A DNA stretch of 50,635 nucleotides from a virus. Location: positions 1 through 50,635 of the IMG/VR virus record IMGVR_UViG_3300013137_002980; one strand, 5' to 3'. This document shows, one piece after another, positions 289-50,635 of the stretch (position 1 is its first letter; each line of letters opens with the position of its first letter). The position numbers were made by a program, and so were the translations under genes. The notes beneath the pieces are model-generated. The model saw only the letters and a list, made by a program, of their open reading frames with translations. It was not told the DNA's origin and did not search any database.

Positions 289-1116
289 CTAAATGACGGG
301 GTTTAAACTGCGGCATTCTGACAGTGTTTTGTAGCCTATCCCGCCCTTATGCCAATCATGTCTTTGCGCCAACTCATAAATTGGCATGTAGACTTCCCTG
401 CCTACAATTTGCCGTGCATCTTCTGCAGCAAATTTAAAATGGTCATGGATACCATGTCCCATAGTCGGGCTAATCTTGCGGATCGCTTCTCCGAACTCTG
501 CCCACCAGTGGTTGAGCCATAGCGCGTGCAGTGCGATTGAACGTGACCGATCGGAAACAGCAGTTTGGTTTTTCTCTGCTTGAGAAAATAACGCTATTAA
601 GTGATGCACGTATTCCACCGCAACTGGTATCGCCTCGTATGGAATATCTTCTATATGCTCTACATTAAAGCGTTGATGCACAAGTTTATAGGCTTCTGAG
701 TAATTTAAGTGTTTGGTTTTAGCCACGAGCATATTCACAGCATTGGTTAGTGGTTCACGCTCTGATTTGTGGGTTTTGGCTACTGGTGCATCTACCGCTT
801 TGTCCAAAATATCTAAAACCCATTTTCGGAATTGCTTAGCGATAACTGTTTTGGAAAACATAGCAATTAGGTGAGCACCACGAAGCGAGAAAATACGGTT
901 TTCCATTTCCACTTTACCCGTCTTTCTAACGACACTCATTTTGAGGGTCGTTGTCATTGATGCAGTAAACTCATCTTTATTACGCTCATACACTTGAGTA
1001 ACTGCATCAGATTTTACATAACCTAGTGCCCCTGCCAATTCGCTCGCAGTTAACCAAACTTGCCCATCTTGCTGTATGGGATTAAATTTAACTTCATTAA
1101 ATGTTAGACTAATCAT
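289..1116 (-). CDS. Phage antirepressor with N-terminal Bro-N domain
   Basis: The 275-residue protein begins with a Bro-N domain (about residues 1-110), recognisable from FNEVKFNPIQQDGQVWLTA, ASELAGALGY and the later SLRGAHLIAMFSKT. The C-terminal half (about 115-275), with KLVHQRFNVEHIEDIPYEAI, resembles the C-terminal domains of P22 Ant/ORF6C-type antirepressors. Known members bind and inactivate phage repressors and so favour induction. A good ribosome site (AGGAG) precedes the ATG. The gene is divergent from an Arc-like gene and both promoters carry the same operator, the arrangement of the P22 immI region. Family assignment is firm; the repressor it targets is unknown. Confidence 0.85.
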   Translation of the reverse strand: MISLTFNEVKFNPIQQDGQVWLTASELAGALGYVKSDAVTQVYERNKDEFTASMTTTLKMSVVRKTGKVEMENRIFSLRGAHLIAMFSKTVIAKQFRKWVLDILDKAVDAPVAKTHKSEREPLTNAVNMLVAKTKHLNYSEAYKLVHQRFNVEHIEDIPYEAIPVAVEYVHHLIALFSQAEKNQTAVSDRSRSIALHALWLNHWWAEFGEAIRKISPTMGHGIHDHFKFAAEDARQIVGREVYMPIYELAQRHDWHKGGIGYKTLSECRSLNPVI

Positions 1117-1147
1117 GTCTTTTCTCCTGGTAGAGAATTAGATAGAG

Positions 1148-1183
1148 CCCCTTGTTTGATGTGAGAGTCGCAAGGGGTTTTTT
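1148..1183 (+). terminator. Terminator-like hairpin in the antirepressor leader
   Basis: CCCCTTG (1148-1154) pairs with CAAGGGG (1171-1177), followed on the plus strand by six T. On the plus strand it would stop transcripts running antisense to the antirepressor before they reach the Arc-like gene promoter. On the minus strand the same stem lies in the 5' leader of the antirepressor mRNA. Confidence 0.6.
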
Positions 1184-1198
1184 ATCCCCATTGGGGAT
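1184..1198. promoter_or_regulatory. Operator 2 of the arc/ant region
   Basis: ATCCCCATTGGGGAT is a 15-nt palindrome with 7-bp perfect arms. It is identical to the copy at 1234-1248, 50 bp away. It covers the predicted start of the antirepressor transcript. The likely binder is the Arc-like protein encoded at 1286. Confidence 0.8.
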
Positions 1199-1205
1199 GC
1201 ATTAA

Positions 1206-1234
1206 ACTGTATTCTTCAAAATATATGTTGTCAA
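1206..1234 (-). promoter_or_regulatory. Promoter of the antirepressor gene
   Basis: On the minus strand, TTGACA (1234-1229), a 17-bp spacer and TACAGT (1211-1206) form a sigma-70 promoter. Its -35 box overlaps the -35 box of the opposite promoter, and its predicted start falls at operator 2. Repression by the Arc-like protein is expected. Confidence 0.7.
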
Positions 1235-1256
1235 TCCCCATTGGGGATATTATTAT
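1228..1256 (+). promoter_or_regulatory. Promoter of the Arc-like gene with operator in the spacer
   Basis: TTGTCA (1228-1233), a 17-bp spacer and TATTAT (1251-1256). Operator 1 (ATCCCCATTGGGGAT, 1234-1248) fills the spacer. In P22 the Arc operator also lies between the -10 and -35 elements, there of the ant promoter. Autorepression is therefore expected. Confidence 0.75.
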
Positions 1257-1827: not shown

Positions 1828-2499
1828 ATGGATATTTTTTCTAATATATGGGGCTTTCTTAAAGAGTATAGTGGTATTTTTGCTAGTATTCCTGTACTGA
1901 TCTACTTAACAAACCTTGTTATTTTAAAATTTATTAAAAAAGATGAACTGGTGCTTCAAAAGGACTTAAACATTCAATTAGAGCGAGAGAAAGCTAATTT
2001 TAATGCCAAACTTGAACGAATAAAGGCACACTATACTCAAGAGAATGAAAAGTTAAAAAGCGAATTGTCACATCAAAATGCAAGATTACAAATTGCATAT
2101 TCAGGCGTATATAAAGATCAAGCTGAAGCATTACGTTTACTTTATACTTTAATCTTAGAATTTGAAGTAGCAATACGAGATAGAAGGAATCCAAATATTA
2201 TAGATTCGAGCAAATATAAAAAGCCTGCCGAAATACTAGAAACTTTTAAAATTGAATTCTACAAAAATGCTATTTTTTTACCTCATCATCTCGATGAAAA
2301 AATATTTGAAATTATTGGCTTTGGATTTTCGAAATTTCTTTTCGATAAGTTTTTGCTTGCTGAGCAAAAGGCAATTCAGGGTGATTTAGATGAGGCAAAC
2401 AAACTTAGTGATGAAGGCTTTGTTAATGATGCTGAATTTATTAAACTTAGAGATGATTTTAGAAATGAAATAAGAAAAATCTTAGCCATAAATGAGTAA
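1828..2499 (+). CDS. Membrane-anchored coiled-coil protein of unknown function
   Basis: 223 residues. One N-terminal transmembrane segment (about residues 12-35, IFASIPVLIYLTNLVIL) is followed by a charged coiled coil (about 40-90, rich in E, K and Q) and a helical C-terminal part. I do not recognise a family. The gene is AT-rich, followed by its own strong terminator, and converges on the PARIS-like pair, which fits an independently acquired accessory gene. A link to defence or superinfection exclusion is possible but unproven. Confidence 0.7.
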   Translation: MDIFSNIWGFLKEYSGIFASIPVLIYLTNLVILKFIKKDELVLQKDLNIQLEREKANFNAKLERIKAHYTQENEKLKSELSHQNARLQIAYSGVYKDQAEALRLLYTLILEFEVAIRDRRNPNIIDSSKYKKPAEILETFKIEFYKNAIFLPHHLDEKIFEIIGFGFSKFLFDKFLLAEQKAIQGDLDEANKLSDEGFVNDAEFIKLRDDFRNEIRKILAINE

Positions 2500-2568: not shown

Positions 2569-3624
2569 TTATTGTGCATACATAATAGATATAGATTTTA
2601 CTGTTTCATTAAAATGATCAACAAGTTCAATATTTCGTTGTTCATTTTTTATGTCGAATGTTCCTTTGTTCTTAAAGAGCTCCTTCCTTTTATCTATTTT
2701 TTGTTGGTCTAACAATTTATCACACTCGGTATTAATGTAGTTATCATATAGTTTAGAAAAATATTTTGCGAGCAAATCTTTTATCAAATTTTCTAAATTG
2801 TGACCTCTAAAAAACATATAGCAGTTTGATTCATTAATATTTTGAACACACATATAGTCAATGACTTTATTAAAATCTTTGATTGCATTAAAGCGAGTGA
2901 AATGCTGTAAAATATTATTTTCAAACGAATGTAACTTCTGCACTAGAGATAGCCATTCATTACAAGAAAAGAAATTTTCCTCAAAAAAACTAATATTATT
3001 AGGCTTAATTTTATTAATATCCTGTAAAATACTATAAAGTGATATTAAGCTATACTTTGCATCCCTATTCTTATCTTTTAAAATAAAATCATGGAAAATA
3101 GCTTGCAAAAGCGGCTTATACAAAATTTTTGAGAATTCAGCATAAAACCTATCTAACCAAGGTGCTTTGTTTGAAATCACGGACTTATGAATGCACAACT
3201 TTTTTGCGAAGAAATTTTGAACAAACTCTTTGTGGTATTCTATACTTTCGACAGAATGTACAAGGGTTTCAAAAATATAATCTGATTTTTTATATTCACC
3301 GTGGTCAGGATTAATGGCTTTGTTCATCAAAAAAACAATATAGTCATAATCACTATCTTTACAGACAACGAGATATTTACCCAAATTATAATGCCCTATT
3401 TTCTCTAACTGCTTACAACCTTCAGCTGGTAATATTCTTAACTCATCTGACATATCTATTGCGGTAGCAAAATCAAAGACCAAATTATCTTGCTCTGGAA
3501 ATGCATCACTCCACAACCGAACGTCTTTTTTATTTTCCACTAAAACTTTAACGTGTTTTTGATCAGTAAAGTAATCAAAGTTTTCATAATATTCACTTGA
3601 TTCTTCAAATGCTATGTCACTCAC
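2569..3624 (-). CDS. DUF4435 TOPRIM-like protein, AriB-like effector of a PARIS-type system
   Basis: 351 residues. The N-terminal part reads like a DUF4435/TOPRIM domain: VKVLVENKKD (Glu30, Asp34) then YLVVCKDSDYDY (Asp90, Asp92), matching the E...DxD acidic pattern of TOPRIM nucleases. In PARIS, AriB (DUF4435) is the toxic effector held by the ATPase AriA; the known effector is a nuclease acting on host tRNA. The start is a GTG overlapping the AriA-like stop codon, with GGAG 8 nt upstream, so translation should be coupled. The C-terminal half is helical and unassigned. DUF4435 also occurs beside other ATPases, so the PARIS label is an inference from the pair. Confidence 0.65.
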   Translation of the reverse strand: MSDIAFEESSEYYENFDYFTDQKHVKVLVENKKDVRLWSDAFPEQDNLVFDFATAIDMSDELRILPAEGCKQLEKIGHYNLGKYLVVCKDSDYDYIVFLMNKAINPDHGEYKKSDYIFETLVHSVESIEYHKEFVQNFFAKKLCIHKSVISNKAPWLDRFYAEFSKILYKPLLQAIFHDFILKDKNRDAKYSLISLYSILQDINKIKPNNISFFEENFFSCNEWLSLVQKLHSFENNILQHFTRFNAIKDFNKVIDYMCVQNINESNCYMFFRGHNLENLIKDLLAKYFSKLYDNYINTECDKLLDQQKIDKRKELFKNKGTFDIKNEQRNIELVDHFNETVKSISIMYAQ

Positions 3625-4898
3625 TCTTCAAACTCCACGCTATTTTTTAACTTTGTAACATTAATAAATCCAACATCTTCTATATCACGCGGAATTAGAG
3701 CTGGAGAGTGTGTTGATATAAAGAACTGAGATTTTGGCGCTAATTCTAGAAAAGTGCTCAACAAGATTCTCTGCCACTCTACATGCATAGCTAAATCTGG
3801 CTCATCAAAAATAAATATAGTATTGGAGTCTTTATATAAAAATACTATTAACAGTAAACAAATGAGATTTTTTTCACCTTTTGAACAGTCATACCACTGT
3901 ATCTCTTTCTCTTGTACTCCACTTCTTTTATGTATTATTTCTTTAAAATAAATCAAACCATCATCAGATAAAAGCACTTTTTTATTGATTTGCTCAAAAA
4001 ATAAATTTATTTTATCTAAAAAATCATTTGCCTCTTTTGTAAACCTTTTTTTAGATAATAGATTATTAAAAAATGATTTAATTTCATTATTATCAAAATA
4101 GTTAAAATCTTCTTTTGATTTTAAATACTCATTTGCTAAATCTTCTGATAATGAGTCATCACTAGATATAACACATTTTCTAAATTCTGATAAAAGTAAA
4201 AAAATTGATTTATCTAAATTATTGTTTTGTGAAAAAACATCTAAGCCACTTAAATTATTAGGCGTATTTAAACCTCTTGTATAAAAAAATTGCTCATCCT
4301 TATAAAATGCCGCAGACAATTTTCTTATATTAGATTTTAAGTCTTGATTGTATTGATTCATAATGGGTGATACATCTGAATACACTGTTTTTTCCAATCC
4401 TACATTTATAGCAAAAATATTTGTAGAGTTTTCTTCTCTGGCAACTTTTTTTGTTATATTAGCTGACTCTTGATTGCTGCTTAACTCCTTTACCAAATAA
4501 TCATAATACTCTTTGATACCCAAGTTTTCTTTACCTGAAACCTTTTGTGAAACTCGTTGGACACTTTCAAAATCATATTGCTTTGTAATAATATTTTTTA
4601 TAGTTATTTTTACTTTGCTATTTGGGGTGATAATACCTGGAATAGAGTCTTTATAATTTTCATAGAATTTATCATCTAATAAAGTTAATTCAACGCCCCA
4701 ATCTTTTCTTGCTGAGAAGAGTGGGCGCTGAACTTTTTGACCAACACCGTCTAATGCCAAAAATATACCATTAAGTATTGTCGACTTACCTGCACCATTG
4801 TAGCCAGTAAGGATTGTCATTCTTTTCGCATAAGAAATCTCAGTAACACTTTTATCTGAGTGCACCCCAATAAAATTAGAATTTTTTAAAAAAATCAT
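3621..4898 (-). CDS. ABC/AAA-type ATPase, AriA-like sensor of a PARIS-type system
   Basis: 425 residues from the ATG at 4898; a GTG at 4910 would add four residues but lies at the predicted transcription start. Walker A is GYNGAGKST (32-40), the signature-like segment is SKGEK (339-343), Walker B is IFIFDEPD (Asp365, Glu366) and the switch histidine is in ISTHSP (about 397). This is the layout of AAA_15/AAA_21 ABC-type ATPases without a transporter domain. In PARIS, AriA assembles with AriB and senses phage anti-restriction proteins such as Ocr. The gene is strongly AT-rich compared with the structural genes, which fits horizontal acquisition. OLD-like or retron-associated ATPases are alternatives. 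Confidence 0.65.
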   Translation of the reverse strand: MIFLKNSNFIGVHSDKSVTEISYAKRMTILTGYNGAGKSTILNGIFLALDGVGQKVQRPLFSARKDWGVELTLLDDKFYENYKDSIPGIITPNSKVKITIKNIITKQYDFESVQRVSQKVSGKENLGIKEYYDYLVKELSSNQESANITKKVAREENSTNIFAINVGLEKTVYSDVSPIMNQYNQDLKSNIRKLSAAFYKDEQFFYTRGLNTPNNLSGLDVFSQNNNLDKSIFLLLSEFRKCVISSDDSLSEDLANEYLKSKEDFNYFDNNEIKSFFNNLLSKKRFTKEANDFLDKINLFFEQINKKVLLSDDGLIYFKEIIHKRSGVQEKEIQWYDCSKGEKNLICLLLIVFLYKDSNTIFIFDEPDLAMHVEWQRILLSTFLELAPKSQFFISTHSPALIPRDIEDVGFINVTKLKNSVEFEE

Positions 4899-4916
4899 TA
4901 TGATTCTCACAATTTG

Positions 4917-40272: not shown

Positions 40273-40518
40273 TTAGATAACGGCTTCCTTACTATTTTGA
40301 GTAGAACGAACATACACCCAATTAATATCAGGACGCAGTTGCTCCGCTCGAACAATTCCTTTCGTAAACTTTTCAATTGGAAGACAGCGCTCTTCTGGAA
40401 TTTTGTCGAAGTTCCACTTACTTAAAGCCCAAGGCGTTATATCCAGATTTCGAGCCAGAGCAGATTTACTGCCTGCAATTTTGATTGCTTTTTCAAAAGC
40501 GTCTTTTGGAGTTGACAT
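40273..40518 (-). CDS. Cro-like repressor (YdaS-type HTH)
   Basis: 81 residues from the ATG at 40518; the longer frame upstream is just the operator region. KAIKIAGSKSALARNLDITPWALSKWN is a YdaS/Cro-type helix-turn-helix. It is divergent from cI and separated from it by three operators. It is the first gene of the leftward early operon. Confidence 0.85.
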   Translation of the reverse strand: MSTPKDAFEKAIKIAGSKSALARNLDITPWALSKWNFDKIPEERCLPIEKFTKGIVRAEQLRPDINWVYVRSTQNSKEAVI

Positions 40519-40534
40519 AATGCTACCAACAAAA

Positions 40535-40547
40535 CTACTTAAAGTAG
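40535..40547. promoter_or_regulatory. Operator O1 of the immunity switch
   Basis: CTACTTAAAGTAG, a 13-nt palindrome with 6-bp arms, at the predicted start of the cro transcript. The identical sequence recurs at 46102-46114. Confidence 0.85.
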
Positions 40548-40552
40548 AAGAT

Positions 40553-40582
40553 AATATACTACCAAAAATAGAATTGGTGCAA
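40553..40582 (-). promoter_or_regulatory. Promoter of cro and the leftward early operon
   Basis: On the minus strand TTGCAC (40582-40577), 18 bp, TATATT (40558-40553). Operator O2 lies in its spacer and O1 covers its start, so bound repressor would block it. Confidence 0.72.
40559..40571. promoter_or_regulatory. Operator O2 of the immunity switch
   Basis: CTACCAAAAATAG, a weaker match to CTACTTAAAGTAG, 24 bp from O1 and inside the cro promoter. Confidence 0.65.
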
Positions 40583-40602
40583 CCTAAAATACGGGGTAAT
40601 AT
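40574..40602 (+). promoter_or_regulatory. Promoter of cI
   Basis: TTGGTG (40574-40579), 17 bp, TAATAT (40597-40602). Operator O3 begins at the end of its -10 box. This promoter should also drive the defence genes behind cI. Confidence 0.7.
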
Positions 40603-40618
40603 TCTACCTAGCGTAGAA
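40602..40618. promoter_or_regulatory. Operator O3 of the immunity switch
   Basis: TTCTACCTAGCGTAGAA, arms of 6 bp, over the -10 and start of the cI promoter; its core CTACCTAGCGTAG resembles O1. Binding here should repress cI. Confidence 0.75.
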
Positions 40619-40636
40619 AATGAGAAGGTCCGTAAG

Positions 40637-41299
40637 GTGCAAACAGCCAAATATCAAGAATTTGCTTCGCGGCTTAATAGCCTCATGCAAAAAGAAGGCT
40701 CACCAATAAAAAACGTGAACCAATTAAAAGATGCCATTCAGGTTACTTATGAAATGGCTCGTCGCTACACGCTTGGTATTGCAAAACCTCGTGAAGAGAA
40801 AATGCAAATACTTGCTGAAAGATTTAATGTAGATATTAGTTATCTGGACCACGGTACAGGTATAGAACCAAACGTCACTGCCCCTTTCCCTATCGCTGGT
40901 CGATTGATACCTGTTATTTCCTGGGTACAGGCTGGATCCTGGACCACAGTTGACTCCGTTCCAGCCGGTACTCAATTTGAAGAATGGCTGCCACCTAACC
41001 CGAAATGTGGAAAGAATGGATATGGCTTAGAGGTCGTTGGTGAATCAATGCTTCCAGACTTCCGCCCTGGTGACAAAATTTATGTGAATCCAGATTTTCA
41101 ACCAGACGATCTTAAGACTGGTGATCTGGTGATTGTGTCTTGCGAAGACGATGCCGAAGCGACGTTTAAAAAATTAATTTTAGAAAGTGGCCATATTTAT
41201 TTACAGCCACTAAACCCAAACTGGCCAGAACAGACTATTCCTTTAATAGATGGATGTAAGTTGGTTGGTAAAGTGGTTGGGTTGTATCGGGATGTTTAA
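40637..41299 (+). CDS. cI: CI-type repressor, LexA/S24 family
   Basis: 220 residues from the GTG at 40637, which has GAAGG about 8-10 nt upstream; the longer frame to 40403 reads through the operators and is not credible. An N-terminal HTH (about 8-70) is followed by an S24 peptidase: self-cleavage site Ala99-Gly100 in WVQAGSW, catalytic Ser137 in VVGESMLPDF and Lys178 in EATFKKL. It holds lysogeny and should be cleaved on RecA activation after DNA damage. It is the first gene of a unit continuing into two defence-like genes. Confidence 0.92.
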   Translation: MQTAKYQEFASRLNSLMQKEGSPIKNVNQLKDAIQVTYEMARRYTLGIAKPREEKMQILAERFNVDISYLDHGTGIEPNVTAPFPIAGRLIPVISWVQAGSWTTVDSVPAGTQFEEWLPPNPKCGKNGYGLEVVGESMLPDFRPGDKIYVNPDFQPDDLKTGDLVIVSCEDDAEATFKKLILESGHIYLQPLNPNWPEQTIPLIDGCKLVGKVVGLYRDV

Positions 41300-41326
41300 T
41301 TTTCTAAAATATTATTGGTTTTAAAA

Positions 41327-42508
41327 ATGCCTAATGAAGAATTAAATTTAACTAAGCTTATTGATACCTTAGAAGATGAAAAAACAGGTGCACATGCGCG
41401 CAAGGGCTTTGCGTATCAAGACTGGTGGGCAGCTCATAAGTCATTCGAATTACTTAGTAACAACAGCAGTAAAGATTTCGCTATTGGCGTTGAAATCAAA
41501 GAAGATGTAATTATTATCGACTCACTAGCCAATCCTTCTCAGTTTGAATTTTATCAAATTAAGAAAAAGGAACCTAACAATTGGTCTATTTCGGGTTTAT
41601 TAAAAGCTGAAAAAAAAGTTTCTACTCAAGAAAAATCTACTATTTCAAAACTTTATTCTAGATATAGAGATTTCAAAACCGACTCAACACACTTATATTT
41701 TGTATCAAATGCTCAATTGCAAATAGAAGTTGTAGAAAACAGCACTAAAAGAAAACATTTGTTGCATAACTCTAATTTTGCTACAGATTTAGATGTGGCT
41801 AATCTTACAAAAATTGAGGACAAGATTCGATCAGAATTGAAATTAGACCAAGACGAGATTGTTAATTTCGATCGCTTAAACTTCCAGAGGTCTGATATTA
41901 GTGCTTTATCCCCTGATATGTCTGTGATAGGTGCTGTTACTGGCTTGAATGAAGACAACAAACTTCCATTCAAATTGAATAATATCTCTTCAACTTGTAG
42001 ATTATTAGCTTCAAAATTCCAAAAATTAGGCATGAATACTGATTTTGCAAAAAATTTAGCACAGTTGCAAAAGAGGTGCTTAACAAAAATAGAGCTATTG
42101 GAATTTTTAAAAATAATAAATGAAAAAATTAAATCACCCGAAGATTATTTAAAAGAAGGAATAACTCAATTAAGATCCGAAAACTATCCCTTTCCAAAAT
42201 TGGAATTGCTTATAGATGAATCCAGACAAATATTAGTTGATATAACAGATAGAACAAAATTGGATGTGCAAAATCTATTTCATCAGGCCCATCAACTTTA
42301 TAAAACCCGCAATAGTTCATATTACAACCTAAACTCACTTACTGAAATGGTAAATAATTTTACTTCTGACCTAATGTCTTATAGTGATGAACCTACACAA
42401 AATATAAACTATATTAAATGTATCACTTTGCTTTTTTTTATATCCAAAGGTGAGATATATAATGAAAGATATTTCAACATACCAGTTACTCAGACTGATT
42501 CGAAATAA
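41327..42508 (+). CDS. DUF4297/Cap4-type nuclease, effector of a candidate Lamassu/ABC-3C system
   Basis: 393 residues from the ATG at 41327. The N-terminal 100 residues match DUF4297 (Cap4 dsDNA endonuclease): GFAYQDWWA (27-35), FAIGVEIKEDV with Glu56, Glu59 and Asp60, and FYQIKKKEPNNW (Gln77, Lys79), a PD-(D/E)xK core. The rest is helical and may be the region that meets the ATPase, as in ABC-3C effectors. In Lamassu, LmuA nucleases of this type cut DNA when the SMC partner senses phage replication. It lies 27 bp after cI in the same direction. No strong ribosome site; very AT-rich. Confidence 0.75.
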   Translation: MPNEELNLTKLIDTLEDEKTGAHARKGFAYQDWWAAHKSFELLSNNSSKDFAIGVEIKEDVIIIDSLANPSQFEFYQIKKKEPNNWSISGLLKAEKKVSTQEKSTISKLYSRYRDFKTDSTHLYFVSNAQLQIEVVENSTKRKHLLHNSNFATDLDVANLTKIEDKIRSELKLDQDEIVNFDRLNFQRSDISALSPDMSVIGAVTGLNEDNKLPFKLNNISSTCRLLASKFQKLGMNTDFAKNLAQLQKRCLTKIELLEFLKIINEKIKSPEDYLKEGITQLRSENYPFPKLELLIDESRQILVDITDRTKLDVQNLFHQAHQLYKTRNSSYYNLNSLTEMVNNFTSDLMSYSDEPTQNINYIKCITLLFFISKGEIYNERYFNIPVTQTDSK

Positions 42509-42525
42509 ACGTAAAGGCTTATGTA

Positions 42526-44223
42526 ATGAAAAAGAAAGTCACTTTTTTAGAACTCAACTTGCTATCAAAGAAAGAGCAGAAAGCACTTCAGGTGGATCTA
42601 AACCATCAAAAAATAATTTTACACGGTGAAAATGATACAGGAAAATCTGTAATAATCCGACATATATTTTGGTGCATGGGTTTAAATCCTGTAAATATAT
42701 TTTCAGATATATGGGACCATAATATTACTGGCATGCTGAGAATACTTTATGACGACAAAGAATATTGTTTCTATAGAAATAAGGATGATAGATATTTATT
42801 TCATAATGAAACCCTAATTTTTAGTTCTAATAAGAATAGTGAGTGGAATGGTTTGTTGGGTGTTTTTTTTAATTACCCATTAAAGCTGCGTCTCAAATCC
42901 AATCATATAGAGAATTATGCTGGGCTAGAAGGTTTGCTAGTTCCTTATTTTATAGAGCAGGATACAGGTTGGTCGCTAAATTGGAGTGGGCCTTTTATTG
43001 GTTTAGCTCGTTATAAAGATTTTTATAAAGAAATATTATCAAACTTTACTGGATTTAACTCTATAGAGTCTATTGCTATTAAACAAGATATTGATTTATT
43101 TAAATCTGATCTAACAAAATTAAAAACACAACTTAAACTTTATGAAGATTCTTTTCATAAAATAAAAATAGAAACAAGCCATGCTCTACCAAGAACCGAT
43201 AAAAACCAATTCAGAAGAGAAATTAAAAAATCAAGTAATGAACTGAAGTCTTTACTTATAAAACAAAAAAATCTTAAAAATAGCTTATCTGAGTTAATTC
43301 AAAAAAAATTTAAATTAAAATCTATTTTAAGATCAAGTATAAGATCTTACAAAGAGATTGCTCTTGATATTGATTATTTAGATGAGAATCTTGAAGTTGA
43401 GTGTCCTACTTGTGGAACCTTGCACAAAAAAACATTAGAAGCATCGGCATCTTTAGAATTTGATTATACAATTTTAGACAACAATATAAAAAATTTAAAA
43501 AATGAAATACTAGAAATAGACAAAAAAATTGCTCCACTAAACTCCTCTTTAGTTGCTATCGACAAAGAAATAGATAATTTTAATAAAACTTTACAATCAT
43601 CAAAAAATAATATTATCTTTCAAGATATTATTGATGTTGAAGCAAATAAAAAAATTTCAAAATCATTTGAAAGAAATATAAAATCTGTGGCCGTGGATAT
43701 TAAAAAAATTGAAGAAAAAATCTCATTAGCTGAGAAAAGTATTGAAAGTTTAGAATCTAAGGATGTTAAGAAGGAAATAAAGAAAATTTTTGAAAATAAA
43801 TTAAAATATAACTTTAATCAACTAAACATTCCGTTTAATGGGAAAATAAATCAAATTCAATCTAGGCCCAATATCGGTGGAGGCAGTTCAAATCCACGAG
43901 CAATTTTAGCTCTTCACATGACATATCTTGAACTTAGTTTAATTAAAACTAATCTACCACTATTCCCTTTTGTTATAGATACACCACAGCAAAATGGACA
44001 AGATATGAACAATCTTTCTAATACATTTAATCATTTAGAGAATATTGATTTCACGCAATTAATAATTGGCTCAGAAATAATTCCAAGCCAAGCTAATCTA
44101 AAAAATTATAAAGTTTTAGAATTTAAAAATAAAAATGCGGTACTAAATTTAAAAGATTATACAAAGGTATCGAAATTATTTAACAATTTTGATACTATTA
44201 TGAATAATCTATTAGAGGTTTAG
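42526..44223 (+). CDS. Rad50/SMC-like ATPase, LmuB-like partner of the DUF4297 nuclease
   Basis: 565 residues. Walker A is GENDTGKS (34-41); two long coiled-coil arms (about 180-280 and 315-410) surround a CPTCG motif at Cys293 and Cys296, placed like the Rad50 zinc hook. A signature-like GGGSSNPRAI follows at about 450-460 and Walker B is FPFVIDTPQQ with Asp485. This is the design of SMC-like ATPases of Lamassu and ABC-three-component defence systems. It follows the nuclease gene by 17 bp, leaving no room for the small middle subunit of ABC-3C systems. Confidence 0.75.
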   Translation: MKKKVTFLELNLLSKKEQKALQVDLNHQKIILHGENDTGKSVIIRHIFWCMGLNPVNIFSDIWDHNITGMLRILYDDKEYCFYRNKDDRYLFHNETLIFSSNKNSEWNGLLGVFFNYPLKLRLKSNHIENYAGLEGLLVPYFIEQDTGWSLNWSGPFIGLARYKDFYKEILSNFTGFNSIESIAIKQDIDLFKSDLTKLKTQLKLYEDSFHKIKIETSHALPRTDKNQFRREIKKSSNELKSLLIKQKNLKNSLSELIQKKFKLKSILRSSIRSYKEIALDIDYLDENLEVECPTCGTLHKKTLEASASLEFDYTILDNNIKNLKNEILEIDKKIAPLNSSLVAIDKEIDNFNKTLQSSKNNIIFQDIIDVEANKKISKSFERNIKSVAVDIKKIEEKISLAEKSIESLESKDVKKEIKKIFENKLKYNFNQLNIPFNGKINQIQSRPNIGGGSSNPRAILALHMTYLELSLIKTNLPLFPFVIDTPQQNGQDMNNLSNTFNHLENIDFTQLIIGSEIIPSQANLKNYKVLEFKNKNAVLNLKDYTKVSKLFNNFDTIMNNLLEV

Positions 44224-46117: not shown

Positions 46118-46136
46118 TTATTTCACCAGACAACAA

Positions 46137-46172
46137 AAAAGCCCAGCTACTTTGGAAGGGAACTGGGCTTTT
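46137..46172. terminator. Terminator-like hairpin in the right operon leader
   Basis: AAAAGCCCAG (46137-46146) pairs with CTGGGCTTTT (46163-46172), a 10-bp stem between the promoter and the first gene. Only four T follow on the plus strand, so it may be a partial stop or attenuator; on the minus strand the T-run is longer. Confidence 0.55.
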
Positions 46173-46190
46173 GCTAAACGCGAGATAAGT

Positions 46191-46622
46191 ATGAACAGAA
46201 AATTCACTCCTTTCAATACCCTGGCCATCACAATCGTTACAGCTTCTGTAACTGTTGGCGGTTTGGCCCTGGCATACAAGCCACAACAGGCGGCCCACGC
46301 ACCTGTTTATCAGCCTAAGGTTGCGCCTTCTGAGTACGGCATCAGCACCTTGGTCATGACTTCTGAAACCGAAGGTCGTGCAGTCATCAATCTGGATGGC
46401 TTTAGCGTTCACGTTCCTTTCACTGTTGACGCCTTCCAGGACAGCTACGGCGTTCCAGGCTCGGAATTTACTGCGGTTGAAGTTCAGCAGCTGGGTGAAA
46501 TCAAAGTTTTTGATGCCAATGGCAATCCTTACAACGATTTCACCGATCACGTGGACCACTACAACATCAACCTGCTGATCAAAGGCTATATCGAAAAACA
46601 CCGTTTAGTGGAGGCTGCGTGA
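46191..46622 (+). CDS. Membrane-anchored early protein of unknown function
   Basis: 143 residues from the ATG at 46191. A hydrophobic segment (about residues 9-28, NTLAITIVTASVTVGGLALAY) looks like a membrane anchor or signal. The rest is beta-rich (TEGRAVINLDGFSVHVPFTV). First gene of the operator-controlled right operon. Function unknown. Confidence 0.65.
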   Translation: MNRKFTPFNTLAITIVTASVTVGGLALAYKPQQAAHAPVYQPKVAPSEYGISTLVMTSETEGRAVINLDGFSVHVPFTVDAFQDSYGVPGSEFTAVEVQQLGEIKVFDANGNPYNDFTDHVDHYNINLLIKGYIEKHRLVEAA

Positions 46623-49341: not shown

Positions 49342-49619
49342 TGGCGCGTTACACCATCACTGTTGAAGCTGAAAGACCGCCGCAAATCATGCTTGGCCAA
49401 GAGATCGGCGGCGCAACAGTGAAAGAGTTAAAAGAGGTTGATATTGAGCTGGTTTCAGCAGCCCACCTGGCCCGGAAGTACAATCTGTCTGTGACCACGA
49501 TTCGAGAAAAGTTAGCCCCGATCAATCAAGGTACACAAGGCAAGGCGCTATACAATCCACGTTTAGCGCATGACCTGCTCACAACAAAAGTGAAAAAAGG
49601 CAGACCGAGAGCTAATTAG
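49341..49619 (+). CDS. Small HTH protein, candidate excisionase
   Basis: 92 residues from ATG 49341 (GGAGG upstream), overlapping the previous stop. SAAHLARKYNLSVTTIREKLAPI is a helix-turn-helix or winged helix as in MerR/Xis-type proteins, followed by a basic end (KVKKGRPRAN). It is the last gene of the right operon, convergent with and overlapping the integrase gene by 4 bp. The size and place suit a recombination directionality factor, but no family match was confirmed. Confidence 0.6.
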   Translation: MARYTITVEAERPPQIMLGQEIGGATVKELKEVDIELVSAAHLARKYNLSVTTIREKLAPINQGTQGKALYNPRLAHDLLTTKVKKGRPRAN

Positions 49620-50635
49620 CTCTCACTGTCGTTAAACATCTCTACTAAATCCTGGGCATCTGGATTGTAATAGGTATTAATTAAAATCCCGATTGTCTTA
49701 TGCCCTGTGATTTTCGCCAAAACTTCAACCGGCAACTTACGAACCTTCACCATTCTTGTAATTGCCTCATGTCGGGAATCATGGAAGTTAATATGCGGCA
49801 GACCTGCTCTTTTCTTAGCTCTTACCCATGTTGCGCAGCATATATCTTTATCAATCGGTAGCAGCTCATCATTATCCGGTGGCAATAAGGACAGCAGGCG
49901 CTTGGCTTCTTTTGATAGCGGAACGTTCCTGGATTCACCATTTTTTGTCATCGGCAGATGAACAAACCCATCCTTTAAGTCAGCCCTGCGCATCGCCAAA
50001 ATTTCGCCCTGGCGCATGGCGGTTTCAAGTGCAAACAGAAATGCCCATGCTACATAGTGTTTAGACTTTTCCGGTGTGGTCATACCGTCCCAGTCCAGTG
50101 CTTTGAGTAGCTCAGCTTGCTGCTCAGGTGTGATGCGCTGGTTTCGTGATTTTTCTTTACTCGGCATTGGTACTGCATGCCAGACATTCGACTCTAGCAA
50201 AAACAGTTCTTTCATTGCATACGTAAAGATGGCCGAGTAAATAGCATGCTCATTTCTCAGTGTTGCCACTTTCACTTCCTTTTTCCGTTTATTGCGCCAC
50301 TCCACAATGTCGCTGGGCTTAAAGTCGTAAATGGATTTATCGGCAATGTTTGGCGCAATTCTCTCAAGGTTTTTTATCTTGAGCATGATTGTCCGGGCAG
50401 ATCGCATGTGTCGGCCATGTTCGTGGTAATACTTATCGCAGAGCTGGCGAAAAGGATACGCTGGTTTTATCCCATGTTCGATATTCGCTTTCCCTGTTTT
50501 TAATTCTAGTAATTTGAGCGAAGCCCACTGCTCACATTCTTTTGCTGTATCCCTGGTTGCTGTGTATCTTTTATTTTCAAAAGTGACAGTGATGCGCCAG
50601 CTTGAGCCGCGCTGAATCGGTTTTGGAAGTTTCAT
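49616..50635 (-). CDS. int: Tyrosine recombinase integrase
   Basis: 339 residues, full length at the window edge. The catalytic set is visible: Arg208 in ETAMRQGEILAM, Lys231 in MTKNGESR, His285 and Arg288 in FHDSRHE, His312 in ITGHKT and the nucleophile Tyr322 or Tyr323 in NTYYNPD. The N-terminal part holds an arm-binding domain (about 1-50) and a SAM-like core-binding domain (60-160). It integrates and excises the phage DNA. Its att site is probably right of the window, upstream of the start codon. Confidence 0.95.
   Translation of the reverse strand: MKLPKPIQRGSSWRITVTFENKRYTATRDTAKECEQWASLKLLELKTGKANIEHGIKPAYPFRQLCDKYYHEHGRHMRSARTIMLKIKNLERIAPNIADKSIYDFKPSDIVEWRNKRKKEVKVATLRNEHAIYSAIFTYAMKELFLLESNVWHAVPMPSKEKSRNQRITPEQQAELLKALDWDGMTTPEKSKHYVAWAFLFALETAMRQGEILAMRRADLKDGFVHLPMTKNGESRNVPLSKEAKRLLSLLPPDNDELLPIDKDICCATWVRAKKRAGLPHINFHDSRHEAITRMVKVRKLPVEVLAKITGHKTIGILINTYYNPDAQDLVEMFNDSES

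Follow-up and report, generated by a model that had tools for sequence, protein, structure and literature searches.

A probable arc-less relative of the P22 immI module, with RHH repressor and antisense RNA control of ant, in a temperate Acinetobacter phage

As a textbook genetic switch, the immI region of phage P22 is a natural reference for any phage locus in which an antirepressor gene (ant) faces a divergent repressor gene. The Rfam family of its antisense RNA does not reach the phages considered here, and no description of this module in Acinetobacter was found among the papers searched. The locus examined in this study lies in an IMG/VR virus record of 50,635 nucleotides that was analysed over its whole length (the window). 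Two identical palindromes occupy the promoter region shared by its ant and repressor genes, which raises the question of which protein reads them, and whether that protein is the only control acting on ant. Besides genes for an integrase (49616-50635) and an S24-type CI-like repressor (40403-41299), the record has a tape measure gene and a replication O-like gene, and is therefore assigned to a temperate phage. We hypothesize, and consider very probable, that the locus is an arc-less relative of P22 immI that serves a temperate Acinetobacter phage as a secondary immunity module, in which ant would be controlled both by an RHH repressor and by an antisense RNA.

Divergent promoters and paired operators

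The palindrome ATCCCCATTGGGGAT occurs as two identical copies, O1 and O2 (Table 1), each symmetric as 7 bp, a central T and 7 bp. No further copy was found in the whole 50.6-kb record, even when 3 mismatches were allowed, and the 15-mer is likewise absent at the CI-like repressor of the same phage. Both copies are embedded in a pair of divergent sigma-70-type promoters, each with a 17-bp spacer. O2 fills the spacer of the plus-strand (repressor) promoter (1234-1250), its centre lying at about -22 relative to that promoter and at about -42 relative to the ant promoter (Pant), and the first base of O1 is one bp downstream of the predicted Pant start (1199). The first-pass annotation of this DNA had claimed overlapping -35 boxes, two identical operators, and the placement of one operator in the spacer of an arc-like promoter and of the other at the start of the antirepressor transcript; all of this was borne out, the transcript start being a predicted one.

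Table 1. Positions of the genes, promoter elements, operators and predicted RNA features of the module in the window.
Feature	Coordinates	Strand	Remarks
ant, antirepressor, 275 aa	289..1116	-	Bro-N N-terminal domain, P22 Ant-like centre
Psar-like extended -10, TGtTAGACT	1102..1110	+	overlaps ant codons 3-5
Predicted ~66-nt sar-like antisense RNA	1117..1182	+	complementary to ant leader including Shine-Dalgarno
Hairpin I of antisense RNA	1117..1143	+	loop CCUGGU complementary to ant Shine-Dalgarno region (CCAGGAG)
ant Shine-Dalgarno region, AGGAG within CCAGGAGA	1122..1129	-	~6 nt before ATG at 1116
Hairpin II and T-run	1144..1182	+	predicted intrinsic terminator of antisense RNA
Operator O1	1184..1198		~+2 to +16 of predicted ant transcript
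Pant -10 box, TACAGT	1206..1211	-	predicted start ~1199; position conserved
TTGTCAA, overlapping -35 boxes	1228..1234		TTGTCA plus (1228-1233); TTGACA minus (1234-1229)
Operator O2	1234..1248		-35/-10 spacer of repressor promoter
Repressor promoter -10 box, TATTAT	1251..1256	+	predicted start ~1263
Mnt-position RHH repressor, 147 aa	1286..1729	+	PF03869, E 1.4e-8

Single promoter matches are expected by chance in such AT-rich DNA (promoter-like sites alone: 5 found against 3.6 expected, not above chance); the argument is therefore built on the paired palindromes and on conservation of the whole geometry. A near-identical pair of 13-15 bp palindromes within 100 bp arose in 0/60 dinucleotide simulations, which, together with the lack of any other copy in the record, rules out chance palindromes. 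A scan for intrinsic terminators flags O2; the reading of the palindromes as terminators was rejected, since O2 sits in a promoter spacer, ahead of the predicted start.

Related loci were drawn from IMG/VR, GenBank phages and 176 Acinetobacter genomes. An exact 15-mer scan of genome contigs returned mostly chance matches in unrelated bacteria, and only matches in Acinetobacter and Psychrobacter were followed. About 20 distinct prophage loci of Acinetobacter/Psychrobacter share this geometry, with the operators 48-50 bp apart: the plus promoter keeps TTGTCA-17-TATTAT and the minus promoter TTGACA-17-TAAATT or similar, and one palindrome always occupies the plus-strand spacer, with its partner at the ant transcript start. 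Within this conserved geometry the operator takes at least three different sequences (ATCCCC..GGGGAT, ATCCCT..AGGGAT and ACCCC..GGGGT); sister operators include ATCCCTACTAGGGAT, ACCCCAGTGGGGT and ATGTCCACTGGACAT, the last being a further class with a different promoter layout. O1 and O2 differ by a mean of 1.7 positions within a locus and 4.6 between loci (0/10,000 permutations as good), so that both copies change in step as the promoter boxes stay constant. One locus (L219) carries a natural deletion between the operators, ~60 bp upstream of the RHH gene, which leaves one operator and a -10 and removes both -35 boxes; it looks like the product of recombination between the operator repeats.

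Which protein reads the operators

The 147-aa product of the plus-strand gene consists of an Arc-family RHH domain (residues ~1-46; PF03869, 34.9 bits against a curated cut-off of 20.4), whose profile matches the AmrZ, Arc and Mnt structures, and an exchangeable C-terminal domain without an assigned fold. The C-terminal part has no Pfam match and the whole protein matches only Arc; the Mnt tetramerisation domain (PF11423) is not matched in it, and is matched in the P22 Mnt control. An AlphaFold2 model reached a pLDDT of 55 and was not used. The protein had earlier been called Arc-like, a description that holds for its domain family, whereas its gene, divergent from ant, occupies the place of mnt in P22.

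The RHH proteins of the related loci are mosaic: a single DNA-reading arm occurs with many C-terminal domains, and the C-terminal domain of the 147-aa protein is found on several other arms as well. The arm and C-terminal halves are therefore statistically separable. With operator and C-terminal classes assigned by hand, a Mantel test ties operator differences to differences in the RHH arm (r 0.71, p 5e-5), with no such correlation for C-terminal class (r -0.05, p 0.79): where the arm is the same and the C-terminal domain different, operators show 0.46 differences (41 pairs), against 5.1 where the arm differs and the C-terminal domain is the same (26 pairs). Operators differ between the arms EYKMRM, EYKVRM and AYNLRL, and the operator class of the AYNLRL arm (GTCCAC) resembles a ggtccacggtggacc palindrome just after Pant in P22 immI, which we take to be the Mnt operator. 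By alignment, the putative DNA-reading residues of the 147-aa protein are E8, K10 and R12. Contact with bases by alternate arm residues is a known mode of RHH proteins (for example, Lys18, Val20 and Arg22 of AmrZ; PMC3325190), and in Arc and Mnt specificity is determined by a short stretch at the N-terminus (Knight and Sauer 1989, cited in PMC3325190); the window protein is like AmrZ, Arc and Mnt in its RHH fold and predicted alternate-arm reading, and differs from them in operator and C-terminal domain.

Because the operator follows the RHH arm and not the C-terminal domain, the adjacent RHH protein is the most likely reader of both sites, and would most likely repress both its own gene and ant. 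The earlier proposal that one protein could silence both genes thus gains support from comparative genomics. A reading in which a different regulator, such as the CI-like repressor or a host protein, acts at the operators and the RHH gene is merely adjacent strikes us as highly improbable. Operator and arm lie at most ~120 bp apart, so linked inheritance contributes to the covariation as a partial confounder, and the covariation could be hitch-hiking; yet the operator class tracks the arm even as C-terminal domains are swapped, the two copies change together beside constant promoter boxes, and the 15-mer lies nowhere else in the phage, the CI-like repressor included.

If the RHH protein does read both sites, it could also activate ant from O2 at low dose and repress it from O1 at high dose, an unlikely alternative in our assessment. 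The O2 centre at ~-42 of Pant is a typical class II activator position and the operator spacing is fixed, but fixed spacing would equally result if each operator simply held its position within its own promoter, no surface for activation is known, and O2 abuts the -35 box, from where it could just as well occlude Pant. Repression from both sites by the RHH protein is the reading that we prefer. Elsewhere among the related loci, RHH repressors are lengthened by extra C-terminal domains, as in L128 (3806-4837, 343 aa) and L131 (4001-4792, 263 aa).

Predicted antisense RNA over the ant leader

The ant product matches PF02498 (E 1.6e-11) and the phrog_2127 anti-repressor family (3e-77), and is 42% identical to P22 Ant over 109 aa of the central region (residues 111-219). 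No open reading frame lies between Pant and ant in the window, that is, the arc gene is absent. The leader would hold a further layer of control, a predicted antisense RNA, that the first-pass account of the switch had missed. The plus strand of this stretch folds into two hairpins (-25 kcal/mol, z -4.25), and no plus-strand gene lies upstream that would need the hairpin II terminator. The -35 of the predicted RNA start is weak.

Distinct relatives (47) were gathered by a motif and terminator search, which selects for hairpin II and total energy and not for hairpin I; exactly two hairpins are present in 47/47. An alignment of 19 sequences is 95.6% paired, with a covariation of 0.333 against 0.193 when shuffled, and one of 44 sequences is 94.7% paired, with a covariation of 0.421 against 0.205+-0.011 in shuffles and at most 0.105 in slid controls. 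RNAalifold on a MAFFT alignment found hairpin II only, because hairpin I was misaligned, and a structure-guided subset recovered both. The plus-strand pair cells hold 86 G-U against 4 A-C in alignment A4, whose fitting to the covariance model favours the structure; for hairpin II the unfitted alignment A1 gives 19 G-U against 1 A-C. The large excess of G-U over A-C shows that the selected RNA is the antisense strand.

The hairpins might instead belong to a structured ant mRNA leader (an attenuator, or a fold that sequesters the Shine-Dalgarno), as the complementary strand folds too (ant leader -26 kcal/mol, O1 hairpin included). Several features make this very unlikely: a T-run follows the stem on the plus strand only, the 86:4 pair ratio favours the plus strand, the plus strand is the more stable in 43/47 relatives, a -10 is conserved within the ant codons, and the layout is identical to that of P22 sar. 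The predicted promoter of the antisense RNA is visible in codon usage: in ant genes starting M-x-S-L, a set chosen by protein similarity and not by the -10 motif, Ser is AGT and Leu is TTA/CTA in 43/43 distinct genes, while TA-ending codons make up only 38% of the Leu codons in the rest of those genes. The extended -10 consensus that overlaps the ant codons is TGnTAnACT.

The covariance model scores the window's copy at 18.9 bits (E 0.03), below a terminator-like stretch at 46136-46193 (23.8 bits), and support for this copy therefore comes from its architecture and the identity of its parts. Among 20 sampled Acinetobacter matches of the model, the promoter motif stands in exact register (position 988) in 12 and is missing from most of the rest; weak genome matches are partly generic terminators and are not trusted alone. 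Across 295 genomes of the wider order the model gave zero matches, missing a known Psychrobacter copy too. A few hairpin II loop sequences in the relatives (L122-L246) are interchangeable, with CCGCCAAG, CCGUCCAAAG and UUGGUA recurring on different stems, and several place UUGG, a candidate for the YUNR U-turn motif (described in PMC6562991), in the sense or antisense loop.

These models point to a conserved, sar-like antisense RNA that probably blocks leaked ant message, and from them and the promoter layout we infer the following order of binding and regulation. In the prophage, RHH repressor made from the plus promoter would bind O2 in that promoter's spacer and so repress its own gene; on O1, at the ant transcript start, it would repress ant. 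O2 also adjoins the Pant -35 box, and the overlapping -35 boxes would admit RNA polymerase to one promoter at a time. The antisense RNA of ~66 nt, whose predicted promoter lies in ant codons 3-5 and whose terminator sits immediately ahead of O1, would pair with the ant leader and block the Shine-Dalgarno, leaving leaked ant mRNA untranslated. On infection of a naive cell, ant could be made until repressor builds up, and Ant, once made, would probably inactivate the S24-type CI-like repressor, its likely target, such that lytic growth is favoured; an inducing signal is presumably involved.

Relation to P22 immI and phage context

In P22, the RF00262 model places sar at X01916 599-532 on the minus strand (68 nt), starting one base before the ant ATG; a -10, TGcTATACT, sits at the same place in the ant codons and the fold has the same two hairpins. 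The predicted start of the window RNA falls on the corresponding base, and its length is 66 nt. Position, length, two-hairpin layout and a promoter inside ant are thus common to both, whereas the sequence is too divergent: RF00262 finds nothing in the window region even when E values up to 5 are admitted (P22 control, 97.8 bits), nor in L124, L128, L194 and L239 at gathering. By analogy, the window RNA would work like sar, yet it is no member by the RF00262 model. There is no Rfam c4 match here either, and c4 is not known to lie antisense across the start of ant as predicted for the window RNA. The c4 RNA of P1/P7 is a small RNA that silences an antirepressor (PMC12197685).

The module had been proposed as a compact relative of P22 immI with a different operator; the relationship stands, but this is an arc-less mnt/ant module with another promoter geometry. 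Common to both are an Arc-family repressor gene divergent from ant, operators in the shared promoter region, a homologous Ant, and an antisense RNA, predicted in the window, that starts next to the ant ATG and has its -10 in the ant codons. Unlike P22, which carries mnt and arc (PMC11016777), the window has no arc gene, and its two identical operators go with one repressor, whereas in P22 the operators of Mnt and Arc are separate. In the window the -35 boxes overlap back to back, where Pant and Pmnt of P22 overlap face to face; Ant has a Bro-N and not a P22_AR_N N-terminus; and the repressor is without the Mnt C-terminal domain. A separate RHH gene of ~52 aa is present ahead of ant, in the Arc position, in sister loci L178, L193, L197, L200, L206 and L241. 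Ant morons without an arc gene have been noted before in CUS-3 and HS-1, as a variable module (PMC2629481), a likeness to the window that is taken from their naming in that paper alone.

At a larger scale, we incline to the view that sar of P22 belongs to a wide family of antirepressor antisense RNAs that had gone unrecognised. If this is true, these RNAs persist across Acinetobacter-group prophages while repressor arms, C-terminal domains, operators and Ant N-termini get exchanged around them, and the prophages hold a natural collection of immunity types and of RHH-operator pairs that differ in specificity. The three-layer immI logic would recur in Acinetobacter prophages with arms and operators swapped as matched pairs, which would provide candidate orthogonal repressor-operator pairs for probing the RHH recognition code, predict immunity groups among Acinetobacter prophages, and add an unannotated small RNA present in dozens of prophages. 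The retention of so elaborate a double control bears on the role of Ant in nature.

Just downstream of the repressor gene, a 223-aa protein (1828-2499, plus strand) has a hydrophobic stretch at its N-terminus and a region that looks helical; profile searches gave it no convincing family, and it is possibly cargo. A probable PARIS defence system neighbours the immI-like module: two adjoining genes (2569-4910, minus strand) share a 4-nt overlap and match AriB (E 4e-11) and AriA (E 4e-25). A probable Lamassu defence system follows immediately after the CI-like repressor gene, where genes at 41315-44223 (plus strand) match LmuA (2e-42, with a Cap4 nuclease domain) and LmuB (2e-93).
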